Source: Cryobacterium zongtaii
GTDB taxonomy: Bacteria > Actinomycetota > Actinomycetes > Actinomycetales > Microbacteriaceae
NCBI RefSeq assembly: GCF_002909375.1
Contig: NZ_PPXD01000005.1
Location: 62,001 to 126,000, forward strand
Direction of reading: 5' to 3'
Length of the DNA: 64,000 nucleotides
Shown: in pieces, positions 816 through 20,580 of the stretch
Numbering within the stretch: position 1 is the stretch's first letter
Layout: every line of letters starts with the position of its first letter
The notes under the pieces: generated by a model
What the model was told of the DNA's origin: nothing
Seen by the model: only the letters and a program-made list of their open reading frames with translations
Databases searched by the model: none
Translations under genes and position numbers: made by a program

Positions 816-1421
816 CTAGAACAACAGCGGGTCCGGCAGGCCGGTTCGCAGCTCTACCGGCAGGTGGCCGAGGTCGTTGTGGGTGACCAGCGACCACGGC
901 CGGCCGGGCTTCTGCTGCAGCACGGTGAGGCCGCAGTTGGCCTGGTTGATGCTGATCCAGCGCCAGTCGGGGGCGCCGAGCACCTCGCGGACGAACCAGG
1001 CGATCACGAAGTTGTGGGTGATCAGCAGGTCGTGTCGGGGACCCCGGTGCGGATGCAGGAATTCCGCGACTGCGTCCTCCATCTGAGCGCGGCCGGCCTC
1101 GATCTGGTCGTCGCTGACCGAGTTGAAGAACGGCGCGTATGCTTTCGGCATCTCCGGCGCCCGGCCGGAGGGAACGCAGTCGAACAACAGCGGCGACGGC
1201 TCCGAGGTGAGCGACGGCAGCCGGTCGGCGATGATGGCCGCCGTCTCCGCGGCACGTTGCAGCGGCGAATGCCAGGCGCCGGTGAACGGCACCCCGCCCA
1301 GGCGTTCGGCGATGAGGTGCGCCTGACGCTTGCCCCGCGGTGACAGCGGGCCGTCCGGCAGGCCGTATTCGGCATCCTGCTGTTCACCGTGTCGCACGAG
1401 GTAGAGGTACTGGGGCATCAT
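816..1421 (-). CDS. Histidine phosphatase family protein (phosphoglycerate mutase-like)
   Basis: A 201-residue member of the histidine phosphatase (branch 1) superfamily. The catalytic RHG motif is at the N-terminus (LYLVRHGEQQD), with the second arginine region (GVPFTGAWHSPLQRAAETA) and the second catalytic histidine in LLITHNFVIAWFVREVL. Such enzymes move or remove phosphate through a phosphohistidine; this one could act on a sugar phosphate, nucleotide or cofactor precursor. Two ATGs are adjacent (1421 and 1418), with AAAGG a few bases upstream of the first. It lies convergent to the SnoaL-like gene, with 20 bases between the stops, and downstream of the M16 protease gene on the same strand. 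Confidence 0.88.
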   Translation of the reverse strand: MMPQYLYLVRHGEQQDAEYGLPDGPLSPRGKRQAHLIAERLGGVPFTGAWHSPLQRAAETAAIIADRLPSLTSEPSPLLFDCVPSGRAPEMPKAYAPFFNSVSDDQIEAGRAQMEDAVAEFLHPHRGPRHDLLITHNFVIAWFVREVLGAPDWRWISINQANCGLTVLQQKPGRPWSLVTHNDLGHLPVELRTGLPDPLLF

Positions 1422-1473
1422 CGCCCTTTCGGTTGATGTCGTAAGAAGTCGAACGGGGCTCGCCGTGAACAGT

Positions 1474-2841
1474 TCAGTTCGGCGGGAGGGGCGCCGCCCG
1501 GCGGGACAGCACGGCGTCGAAGGCGTCCTCCTCGAGGGCGCCGACGGCGGCCACGGAGAACGGCCGGGAGACCATGTCGACCGCCAGCTGCTGCACATCG
1601 TCCGCGGTGACCAGCGCGAGGCGCCGCAGGGCCTCGTCGAGGTCGACGAACTCGCCCAGCGTGATCTCGGAGCGGCCGAGCCTGGACATCCGGGTGTCGG
1701 AGTCTTCGAGGGCCAGGGCGGATGCGCCGGAGAGCTGACCGGAGGCCCGCTTCATCTCGTCGGCGGTCACACCGTGCTCGGCGAGGCGGTGCAGCTCGTC
1801 GAGCATGATCTCGGTGACCTGACCGGCCTTGGCCGGGGTGCAGCCGGCGTACATGCCGAAGATGCCGGCGTCAGAGTAGCCCGGCGCGAACGAGTAGACG
1901 GAGTAGGCCAGGCCGCGCTTTTCGCGCACCTCCTGGAACAGGCGCGACGACATGCCGCCGCCGAAGATGGAGGTGAGCACATTCATCGCCACGCGGCGGT
2001 CGTCGGCGGCCACGAGACCCGGCACGCCGATCAGCAGGTTGGCCTGCTCGAGCGGACGGTGCACGACGCTGATGGGCTGGCCCTGGCTGATCACGGCGGC
2101 GGCGCCGGAGCGGCGTCCCACCGGTGCGGCGTACTCGCCCAGGTCCCAACCGGCCTGCAGCAGCGACCGGGTGACGGCGGCCACGAGCACGTCGTGGTCG
2201 ACGGCGCCGGCAACGGTCACGACCAGGTCTTGCGGGCGGTAGTTGGCCCGGTAGTGCTCCCAGACGGCGTCTCGGGTCGCGGCGCGGATGGTGTCCGGGC
2301 TGCCGCCGATGGGTCGGCCCAGCGGATGCGCGCCCATGACGGCCTGGAAGAAGCGTTCGTTGGCGACGTCGGCCGGGTCGTCGTCGGCCATCGCGAGTTC
2401 CTCGAGGATGACGCCGCGCTCGGTTTCGAACTCCGCGGGGTCCAGCAGCGACGAGGTGATCATGTCGGTGAGCACCTCCACGGCCATGTGGAGGTCACGA
2501 TCCTGCACCTTGGCGTAGTAGCAGGTGTATTCCTTGGCCGTCATGGCGTTGTGTTCGCCACCGACGGCGTCGAACGCGATGGCGATGTCCAGCGCCGAAC
2601 GCTCTGCGGTTCCCTTGAACAGCAGGTGCTCGAGGAAATGCGTGGAGCCGAAGTGACCGGGCTGTTCGTCGCGGGACCCCACGGCCACCCAGTAGCCGAT
2701 GGTGAGGCTGCGGCTGCCCGGCACCTGTTCGGTGACGATGCGCACCCCGCTGGGGAGGACGGTGCGCCTGACGAGGGACTCACCAGCGGCCCGAAACGAG
2801 AGTTCGGTCAGGTCAAGGGGAAATTCAACGGCACCGTTCAT
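1474..2841 (-). CDS. M16 family zinc metallopeptidase (insulinase/processing peptidase-like)
   Basis: A 455-residue pitrilysin-family peptidase. The inverted zinc motif HxxEH is at residues 68-72 (HFLEH), and the third ligand is the glutamate near 148 in ERGVILEE, about 76 residues later as expected. The C-terminal half carries the R/Y substrate-binding region (REKRGLAYSVYSF). The length fits the single-chain ~45-50 kDa bacterial form. It has no signal peptide, so it is probably a cytosolic oligopeptidase or processing peptidase. In related actinobacteria this gene usually lies directly after pnp; here pnp is on the same strand, but four unrelated genes intervene. Confidence 0.92.
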   Translation of the reverse strand: MNGAVEFPLDLTELSFRAAGESLVRRTVLPSGVRIVTEQVPGSRSLTIGYWVAVGSRDEQPGHFGSTHFLEHLLFKGTAERSALDIAIAFDAVGGEHNAMTAKEYTCYYAKVQDRDLHMAVEVLTDMITSSLLDPAEFETERGVILEELAMADDDPADVANERFFQAVMGAHPLGRPIGGSPDTIRAATRDAVWEHYRANYRPQDLVVTVAGAVDHDVLVAAVTRSLLQAGWDLGEYAAPVGRRSGAAAVISQGQPISVVHRPLEQANLLIGVPGLVAADDRRVAMNVLTSIFGGGMSSRLFQEVREKRGLAYSVYSFAPGYSDAGIFGMYAGCTPAKAGQVTEIMLDELHRLAEHGVTADEMKRASGQLSGASALALEDSDTRMSRLGRSEITLGEFVDLDEALRRLALVTADDVQQLAVDMVSRPFSVAAVGALEEDAFDAVLSRRAAPLPPN

Positions 2842-19513: not shown

Positions 19514-19558
19514 GTCAAGGAATGCTTGACAGAACTTCGCTGTCAATGCATCCTTGAC
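19514..19558 (+). promoter_or_regulatory. Two tandem palindromes GTCAA-N7-TTGAC overlapping the start region
   Basis: Two perfect-armed 17 bp palindromes occur at 19514-19530 and 19542-19558, with start-to-start spacing of 28 bases. The second ends two bases before the ATG at 19561. The TTGACA at 19526-19531 could be a -35 element, with CATCCT at 19549-19554 as a weak -10 at 17 bp spacing. That would place transcription start at about the A of the ATG, giving a leaderless mRNA; no Shine-Dalgarno sequence is present. A repressor bound here would cover both promoter elements. The HTH protein of the same operon is the obvious candidate (inference). Confidence 0.65.
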
Positions 19559-19560
19559 AC

Positions 19561-19884
19561 ATGAACACAAAGAGTTCCCTTTCCCGCCCGCGCTGGTATG
19601 CCGCGGCCGTGGTCGGCGGAGTGGTGGCGATCGCCGCACTCTCCACCGCGGCCATCCTCGTCGACCACGACCCGGCCGACTCCGTCTTGGGCTTCCTCAC
19701 CGGAATGCTCAGCGTTCTGCTGGTCACCGTCATCCTGTGGACCGAGATCGGCCGCCAGAGGGTGGCCAGGCTGCGCGACACCGTGGCACTCGACAACCTG
19801 GAACCGCTGCGCGACGCGACCGACGCCGAAAGTGCGGGACAGCGGCTTGGCCAACGTCGTGACCAGCGGACGGACGAGCGATGA
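19561..19884 (+). CDS. Small membrane protein of unknown function
   Basis: A 107-residue protein that I do not recognise. After a short basic N-terminus (MNTKSSLSRPRW) it has two hydrophobic segments, roughly residues 13-34 (AAAVVGGVVAIAALSTAAIL) and 42-61 (VLGFLTGMLSVLLVTVILW). A charged cytosolic tail rich in Arg, Asp and Gln follows. It starts right after two tandem palindromes, probably from a leaderless transcript. Its stop overlaps the start of the HTH gene by four bases (ATGA), so the two products are made together. The layout suggests a membrane component working with the regulator. Confidence 0.75.
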   Translation: MNTKSSLSRPRWYAAAVVGGVVAIAALSTAAILVDHDPADSVLGFLTGMLSVLLVTVILWTEIGRQRVARLRDTVALDNLEPLRDATDAESAGQRLGQRRDQRTDER

Positions 19885-20513
19885 CGGCGCCGACACCCGA
19901 ACATTCACCGACGTCGCTGACGGCCGCAGAGGCCGCCGCGGTGCGCGACGCGGTCGCCGAAGCGGTGCTCGGCAGCCCGACCGGTCTCCGCGCCGACCTC
20001 GAGAGCGACCCGGATGCGTACCTCCGTCTGGTCGGTGCCAGCCGCACCGCCGCGGAGGAAACCAGCCGATTGCTGCGGGACTCGATCAACGGCGCGCGGG
20101 CCGCCGGGCACAGCTGGGACGCCCTGGGCCGGGTGCTCGGGGTAAGCCGGCAGGCCGCCCAGCAGCGATTCTCCTCGGCGAGCCAAACAGGCTCCGCCGG
20201 CCCGGCCGCGGCCGCACACGACGGCGAGCCCGGGCATCCGCGCCGCAAGGTGCTCAGCCCGGTCACCGCGTTCGACGAGATGGCCATACTGGCGATCGAG
20301 GGCCGCCGCGGCTGGCACGTCGTGGATTACGGCACGCTCTACCACGTGCTGGAGGCCTCGGACCGGCAGTGGGAGCACCGCCGGCTGCTGTGGACACCGG
20401 GAAACGCGGCTAGACGACACCTCGAGGCCGAGGGCTGGCGTCTGGTGGGCGAGACGACGTTCCCGTGGGGTTATTACACCCGGGCACTGGACTCGGCGGC
20501 CGAGCCGGCCTGA
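19881..20513 (+). CDS. Helix-turn-helix protein, probable transcriptional regulator
   Basis: A 210-residue protein. A helix-turn-helix lies at about residues 75-98 (AGHSWDALGRVLGVSRQAAQQRF), the 'is this the right site' type of HTH common in small actinobacterial regulators. An Ala-rich linker leads to a C-terminal alpha+beta domain (residues ~120-205: VTAFDEMAILAIEGRRGWHV, LEAEGWRLVGETTFPWGYY) that I cannot place in a named family. The gene overlaps the small membrane protein gene by four bases. The two palindromes upstream of the operon are its likely binding sites, which would make it autoregulatory. A terminator follows at 20546-20580. Confidence 0.78.
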   Translation: MTAPTPEHSPTSLTAAEAAAVRDAVAEAVLGSPTGLRADLESDPDAYLRLVGASRTAAEETSRLLRDSINGARAAGHSWDALGRVLGVSRQAAQQRFSSASQTGSAGPAAAAHDGEPGHPRRKVLSPVTAFDEMAILAIEGRRGWHVVDYGTLYHVLEASDRQWEHRRLLWTPGNAARRHLEAEGWRLVGETTFPWGYYTRALDSAAEPA

Positions 20514-20545: not shown

Positions 20546-20580
20546 AAACGGGCCGCCACCTCAAGGGTGACGGCCCGTTT
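20546..20580. terminator. Hairpin terminator between HTH gene and rpsO
   Basis: 15-base arms (20546-20560 and 20566-20580) with one mismatch and a 5-base loop; the arm core is AAACGGGCCG. The minus-strand exit has TTTTGTGT, fitting a terminator for rpsO. The plus-strand side also has a short T run, so it may serve both converging genes. Confidence 0.85.

Follow-up and report, generated by a model that had tools for sequence, protein, structure and literature searches.

The closest described systems are ClpC2, an Rv2667-type protein, and the RelS-RelI pair. The ClpC2 operator, CGTCAAC-n5-GTTGACG, lies 1-2 nt ahead of the open reading frame (PMC10030653, 2023). As far as the accessible part of that paper goes, many of the organisms studied have two copies of the operator, which overlaps the -35 and -10 elements, and the transcript is probably leaderless; EMSA showed binding by ClpC2, which represses itself and which cyclomarin A releases (PMC10030653). 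Fragments comprising residues 4-72 and 94-252 were crystallised, and the authors propose the C-terminal (Clp_N) domain as the DNA contact, partly from a mutant with weakened binding, in which two arginines of this domain are changed; the words helix-turn-helix do not occur in the accessible text (PMC10030653). RelI is an antitoxin whose helix-turn-helix (HTH) is related to that of ClpC2 (PMC13284704). In the portion of this second source that was open to us, it is stated that the region ahead of relSI showed no inverted repeats and that evidence of DNA binding was lacking; HTH fusions to DUF3887 or DUF2812 are mentioned and called typically stand-alone (PMC13284704).

The window, by which we mean the whole stretch of 64,000 nucleotides of Cryobacterium zongtaii analysed here, contains an operon that resembles these systems in layout (Table 1). 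An earlier note, made from the letters alone, had described two GTCAA-N7-TTGAC palindromes, 28 bases apart, abutting the ATG of a two-gene operon with a four-base overlap, together with a TTGACA-17-CATCCT promoter that placed the start of transcription at the ATG with no ribosome site, and had taken the downstream gene for an HTH protein. All of this held up on closer reading: the palindromes start 28 bp apart, the second leaves a 2 nt gap before the ATG at 19561, the start of the second gene overlaps the stop of the first through ATGA, the spacer between TTGACA and CATCCT is 17 nt, and no purine-rich ribosome site is present between the proximal operator and the ATG. From this promoter geometry, transcription is predicted to start at about 19561 and to give a leaderless transcript.

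Table 1. Features of the P0001-P0002 operon (window coordinates) and of three related loci (coordinates of the respective locus)
Feature	Position	Strand	Basis or remark
Distal operator palindrome GTCAAGGAATGCTTGAC, perfect GTCAA-N7-TTGAC	19514-19530	.	Sequence read; strict pair in 34/38 homologous loci
Predicted -35, TTGACA	19526-19531	+	Right arm of the distal palindrome plus the next base
Proximal operator palindrome GTCAATGCATCCTTGAC, perfect GTCAA-N7-TTGAC	19542-19558	.	Stops 2 nt short of the ATG
Predicted -10, CATCCT	19549-19554	+	Within the proximal palindrome, its positions 8-13
P0001 (ORF1), small membrane protein, 107 aa	19561-19884	+	Two hydrophobic helices and a tail with an LDNLEPL motif
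P0002 (ORF2), HTH regulator, 210 aa	19881-20513	+	
P0002 helix-turn-helix, residues 79-103	20115-20189	+	AF2 helices 79-86 and 90-103; profile alignments
P0002 C-terminal alpha/beta domain, about residues 120-206	20238-20498	+	AF2 strands and helices
L202, ClpX-type C4 zinc finger fused to HTH	1220-1644		Pfam 2.5e-14; tandem operator 3 nt ahead of ATG
L241, Deinococcus sp. QL22 plasmid	2754-2826		Three palindromes, each exactly 28 bp from the next, the last containing a perfect TATAAT
L242, Deinococcus ficus plasmid pDFI1	870-5278		Pair between replication initiator gene and parB/parA

Shuffled sequences contain GTCAA-N7-TTGAC 0.02 times on average, the window twice, and two were reached in 0 of 100 shuffles. 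The whole genome of 4.05 Mb has three such palindromes, two of them at this operon, and given this number the regulon of P0002 looks local. Each palindrome supplies one predicted promoter element, the distal one the -35 with its right arm and the proximal one the -10, so that the constant distance between the palindromes also gives the promoter its spacing. The window's own -10 is weak (CATCCT agrees with TATAAT at 3 of 6 positions), and the identical six positions read TATAAT or TATGAT in some relatives. Among six offsets scored in the proximal palindrome this one was the best: the mean match to TATAAT is 3.38/6 over 34 P0002-family pairs, that is the window and 33 homologues (other five offsets at most 2.44), and 3.49/6 over the 63 ClpC2 pairs among the loci listed (other five at most 2.21), these 63 having T at position 8 throughout and A at position 9 in all but one (62/63). 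A score of at least 3 is found in 30/34 proximal palindromes of the P0002 family versus 16/34 of the distal ones used as a control, and in 63/63 versus 11/63 for the ClpC2 pairs listed; the contrast is therefore sharp in ClpC2 and moderate in the P0002 family. The spacer between -35 and -10 measures 16-18 nt in the 34 pairs of the P0002 family and 17-18 nt in the 63 listed for ClpC2.

The question of whether homologous loci keep the palindrome pair, which the earlier note had put forward as a check, was addressed with loci found via the regulator protein alone and not via the operator. A P0002 search of 100 genomes (the window's own included) gave matches in 41, many to the HTH only, from which we took 20 loci outside the window at E≤1.5e-12; weaker matches (L025 onwards, mostly HTH-only) were excluded, as were G045 C48 (E 8.6e-18) and L164, which is the same gene as L018. 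A search with a 19-row alignment placed the P0002 family in 15 of 394 genomes of the class, the window's own included, and contributed 13 new loci; tblastn added five plasmid records, two of them from Deinococcus, and found no member of the family in phage records. Strict palindrome pairs 27-29 bp apart are present in 34 of the resulting 38 loci (18 of the 20 from the genome search, 12 of the 13 from the class and 4 of the 5 plasmids), the Deinococcus plasmids included, and in all 34 the ATG lies 2-3 nt past the proximal palindrome. The arms are constant across homologues; the N7 centres and the flanks vary. Three further loci have only one strict site, to which L245 adds a second with one mismatch, and the sole locus with none, L012, is a decayed remnant in which operator, membrane gene and regulator N-terminus are all missing, downstream of the same neighbour gene as the window's copy. 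An in-frame TGA is seen in L014. Six loci (L054, L072, L081, L086, L102 and L108, the last matching L006) stand outside this count, since they were found by their operator. With the pair in 34 of 38 loci, the case that the earlier note had named against itself, orthologues devoid of palindromes, did not occur. The weak -10 of the window could be taken to mean that the palindromes lie by chance upstream of an ordinary leadered operon; this reading is contradicted by the homologues, which keep the pair despite varying N7 and flanks, and two palindromes never arose in the 100 shuffles, so that we give it next to no credence.

P0002 is assigned to the HTH proteins on several grounds. Its family profile has crystallised RelI as the top match among solved chains (4e-14), it matches a PHROG HTH family (2.1e-8), and Pfam HTH models gave matches below their cut-offs only. 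By hhalign, the family aligns with ClpC2 N-termini (98.4%) and with RelI-type proteins (98.7%), the homology being limited to about 50-60 residues around the HTH, and the segment SWxxIGxxLGxSxQAAxxRF of the ClpC2/RelI-type superfamily is present in P0002. The AF2 model (alignment of 6 sequences, pLDDT 80, pTM 0.48) returned nothing at E≤0.001 from the PDB with Foldseek; most VIA-align rows cover residues 60-103 only and match HTH domains, of the Lrp/AsnC type among others, with Z no higher than about 5, with RelI and ClpC2 chains absent among the rows listed. These middling Z values support an HTH fold for the model and nothing finer.

The C-terminal domain is modeled as a repeated helix-strand-strand pattern and has invariant Gly-Trp pairs. 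No Pfam family scores above its cut-off in P0002, this domain included; across 19 family members, hmmscan gave weak DUF4177 matches in five, no match to DUF2812 at E≤10, and no Clp_N at E≤10, a domain for which the ClpC2 control L092 scores 1.3e-23. In joining an HTH to a C-terminal domain, P0002 is like the HTH-DUF2812 and HTH-DUF3887 fusions, to whose group it possibly belongs, and it may be the DUF2812 fusion itself as far as this is described in the available part of PMC13284704. Those fusions are called typically stand-alone there, whereas a small hydrophobic gene stands in front in 35/38 loci here. By analogy with ClpC2, the C-terminal domain is likely the sensing part of P0002, a candidate sensor or partner-binding domain.

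The hydrophobic segments of P0001 span residues 16-34 and 41-59, and homologues are found in seven other genomes of the genus (E≤1.1e-26). More widely, the first gene of the 35 loci (L245 counted, although unscored) is a hydrophobic ORF of 68-114 aa with one or two helices. No family model scores above cut-off for P0001 or the other partners scanned. SLATT effectors have two transmembrane helices and a cytosolic helical tail, a topology shared with P0001, but at 17.7 bits versus a model cut-off of 41 P0001 is not a member by this test; one of nine other first-gene partners matches SLATT (16.1 bits) and eight do not. BrnT has no match in P0001 at E≤1; among RelS-like controls it detects P0004 (3.4e-7) and five of six more (9.2e-7 to 0.0031), one of the six giving none, and all of these scores lie below its 34.5-bit cut-off. 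Weak partner matches to SLATT, SAVED-TM, Cas7, CbiN and SCO2097-like models were set aside as being far under the curated cut-offs, where such exist, and unshared between partners, and a match to PHROG 13918, a family of unknown function, gives the membrane partners no identity.

The tails of the partners were assigned by hand to classes (LDxLEPL; WLPSRDGER; others), the motifs of which recur within regulator clades. On the regulator tree the tail class changes 8 times against a shuffled mean of 20, with 0 of 200 shuffles as low; this tree has 38 rows that are not the same set as the 38 loci, as it leaves out L009, L010, L012, L020, L021 and L022 and takes in the window and five pattern-found loci. 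Because tail class tracks the regulator tree, membrane protein and regulator appear to have been largely inherited as a unit. The regulator is the first gene, with no membrane partner ahead, in L054 and L167, and the first ORF of L241 is a 29-codon remnant; the operator-regulator unit can therefore do without an intact partner. In L081 the membrane segments are gone, and the start and an LDALEPL tail are still in one frame.

ClpC2 and P0002 thus share an HTH segment and tandem palindromes placed just before the start codon over the -35 and -10; a leaderless transcript is deduced in both, and autoregulation is published for ClpC2 and predicted for P0002. In ClpC2 the HTH is followed by Clp_N repeats and the gene begins at the operator, whereas P0002 ends in an unrelated domain and is encoded behind a membrane-protein gene. 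RelS-RelI, as set out in the accessible part of its description, shares with P0001-P0002 the HTH region of RelI and the order of partner first and regulator second; RelS, however, is a soluble BrnT-like RNase and P0001 a membrane protein, and RelI is without the C-terminal domain of P0002. In view of the ClpC2 and RelI publications the module in the window is of an already known kind, and the mechanism envisaged in the earlier note seems essentially right as that of a ClpC2/RelI-type HTH autorepressor. Its word "undescribed" stands for this membrane-protein/regulator pair, which, like a general operator rule, was not found in the open-licence literature searched, and falls for the layout, the autorepression and the leaderless promoter, which the available text on ClpC2 already reports. 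What is new is the combination of a small two-helix membrane protein with an HTH protein whose C-terminal domain is under every Pfam cut-off.

We consider it very probable that the operon is a self-repressed, leaderless two-gene module under the ClpC2/RelI-type HTH protein P0002. Sequence comparison speaks for this through the operator pair, the promoter geometry, the abutting start, the shared HTH and the co-inherited partner; that P0002 would bind these sites, repress from them and be lifted by a releasing factor is suggested by analogy with ClpC2, in which binding, autorepression and release are established. P0002, probably as one dimer per palindrome, would cover the -35 (distal), the -10 (inside the proximal palindrome) and the start site, and by covering the promoter would shut off its own operon. 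A signal, or the tail of the partner, might engage the C-terminal domain or dimerisation region of P0002, which would then leave the DNA, and P0001 and P0002 would be made together. P0001 itself is most likely an effector or a sensor under the control of P0002.

These two roles lead to readings that we regard as about equally likely, each of them tentative. P0001 could be a membrane-acting toxin and P0002 its antitoxin, which would also repress the operon; the toxin gene would come first, as in RelS-RelI. It is an antitoxin, RelI, that gives the best solved-chain match to the P0002 family, and the gene order is identical. The patchy occurrence across the class (15 of 394 genomes) agrees with this, as do the plasmid homologue of Deinococcus ficus with its neighbouring replication and partition genes, the retention of the regulator where the partner is absent or broken (L054, L167, L241, L081), and the near absence of the converse, a partner without a regulator (E≤1e-12) being limited among 100 genomes to two weak matches (G005, 8.3e-6; G067, 5.0e-4). 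Yet neither P0001 nor any partner scanned matches a toxin family, the operator-HTH unit also stands ahead of non-toxin genes (ClpC2, an acyltransferase), and in near relatives of the window's genus the module adjoins an rpsO-like gene, as a resident gene would. Were the membrane partner toxic, it would represent a new toxin class. P0001 could instead be a sensor or anti-repressor, the tail of which would bind P0002 under stress and hold it at the membrane, in a positive feedback whose output is more of the pair. The recurrence of the LDxLEPL and WLPSRDGER tail motifs inside regulator clades favours such a role, and so does L081, which has lost the membrane segments and keeps its start and tail in frame; conservation of the tail could, however, also stem from its overlap with the start of the regulator, and this reading does not account for the output of a pair that regulates itself and has no other visible target. 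If the membrane partner is a sensor, the module would be a very small membrane-to-promoter circuit.

The distribution of the operator extends beyond this family. A DNA-pattern scan of GTDB species genomes gave at least 118 stretches, of which 80 loci are listed, a sample and not a census. Among these 80, 72 pairs abut an operon encoding the same HTH, either in the ORF starting at the operator (65) or in an ORF further on, at most 1.9 kb away (7); three more reach the end of the locus too soon, and five do not fit (L044, L051 and L104 without an abutting ATG; L114 and L115 with an ATG but no HTH). The HTH motif, which was drawn up after family members had been seen, is present in 0 of 252 control pieces of the same loci. 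Most of the loci listed are ClpC2-like, with the HTH followed by Clp_N (63 by sequence pattern, with a Pfam check on L092 only), and P0002-family pairs are also among them. An AAT-type acyltransferase stands right behind the tandem operator in L049, L060 and L119, with a small HTH gene downstream, and L075, the sole locus checked against Pfam AAT, has the HTH apparently fused to this enzyme. The 2023 observation on ClpC2 can thus be turned into a searchable rule, by which tandem GTCAA-N7-TTGAC palindromes before an ATG predict a self-repressed HTH module (72 of the 80 listed); such a rule locates cargo genes without annotation and makes partner proteins and their signals testable.

A RelI-based search, with a match in 33 of 296 genomes, added short HTH-only genes with sites 25-26 bp apart (L192, L200) and the zinc-finger fusion of L202, which L203 and L205 resemble; they too have the operator 3 nt ahead of the ATG, with one site mismatched in the former and both in the latter. 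By sequence, these three look like a ClpX counterpart to the ClpC2 sponge. Viral contigs gave 34 pattern matches, of which 9 have an abutting HTH ORF (several being near-copies), 1 is incomplete and 24 do not fit. The HTH genes of these nine (L216, L218, L220, L236 and five others) are short, and the operator lies 2-3 nt ahead of the start codon. Tandem palindromes with no abutting HTH gene are seen in L213, L214, L215, L221, L228, L235 and L238; most resemble GTCAAAG/CTTTGAC, with 13 bp between them, and they are apparently a different element.

Another conserved regulator might read the operator, with P0002 a mere passenger, but the HTH is found with the operator whether in fusions to unrelated partners, on Deinococcus plasmids or in some phage contigs, and we hold this reading to be improbable. 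A broader reading of the same distribution, with about as much to be said for it as against it, is that a leaderless self-repressing HTH-operator cassette has spread through Actinobacteria, some of their phages and Deinococcus plasmids onto varied cargoes (the Clp_N sponge, a ClpX-type zinc finger, an acyltransferase, an RNase toxin, and new two-helix membrane proteins acting as toxins or sensors), and that the recognition helix of ClpC2 is the true reader of its operator.

The last point bears on ClpC2 itself. P0002 and ClpC2 have only the HTH region in common yet share the same operator, which suggests that the HTH, and not the Clp_N domain, gives ClpC2 its operator specificity. A Mycolicibacterium ClpC2 modelled with AF2 (pLDDT 90) has its second HTH helix at residues 74-81, in the gap between the crystallised fragments, and the match of the P0002 profile to chain 8ada, of 72 residues, extends to the very end of that chain (E 0.0015). 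The operators differ in the inner base of the arm, which is C in 117/126 ClpC2 sites (among the loci listed) versus G or T in 58/68 sites of the P0002 family. The comparison opens to a test the DNA contact through the C-terminal domain as proposed in the available text on ClpC2; the weaker binding of the double arginine mutant fits poorly with a simple reading by the HTH only, although this C-terminal effect could be indirect.

The lack of upstream repeats reported for relSI in the accessible part of PMC13284704 could likewise be put to the test, and four relSI-type homologues proved to have a strict or near-strict pair while others have none. Among 13 RelI-like loci, one has a strict pair (L026) and three a strict site with a one-mismatch site 27-31 bp away (L180, L181, L183); one has mismatched sites only (L177), three a lone site close to the genes, exact or with one mismatch (L178, L179, L186), and five no site at all (L182, L184, L185, L187, L188). 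L177 and L180-L187 have a recognisable RelS-like ORF, which ends early in L181, so that L182, L184, L185 and L187 are relSI-type loci without an operator; with at least four such loci, the operator is a feature of part of the RelS-RelI group. The toxin ATG of L180 and L181 lies within the second site and not past it. The operator at the toxin start of L026, L180, L181 and L183 differs from the M. tuberculosis relSI locus, going by its description in the portion of the paper available.

Beyond the operon of the window, the adjoining gene, which is the same in near relatives and which we take to be rpsO, converges on the regulator gene. Between the two lies an inverted repeat, AAACGGGCCG...CGGCCCGTTT, at 20546-20580, probably a shared terminator.
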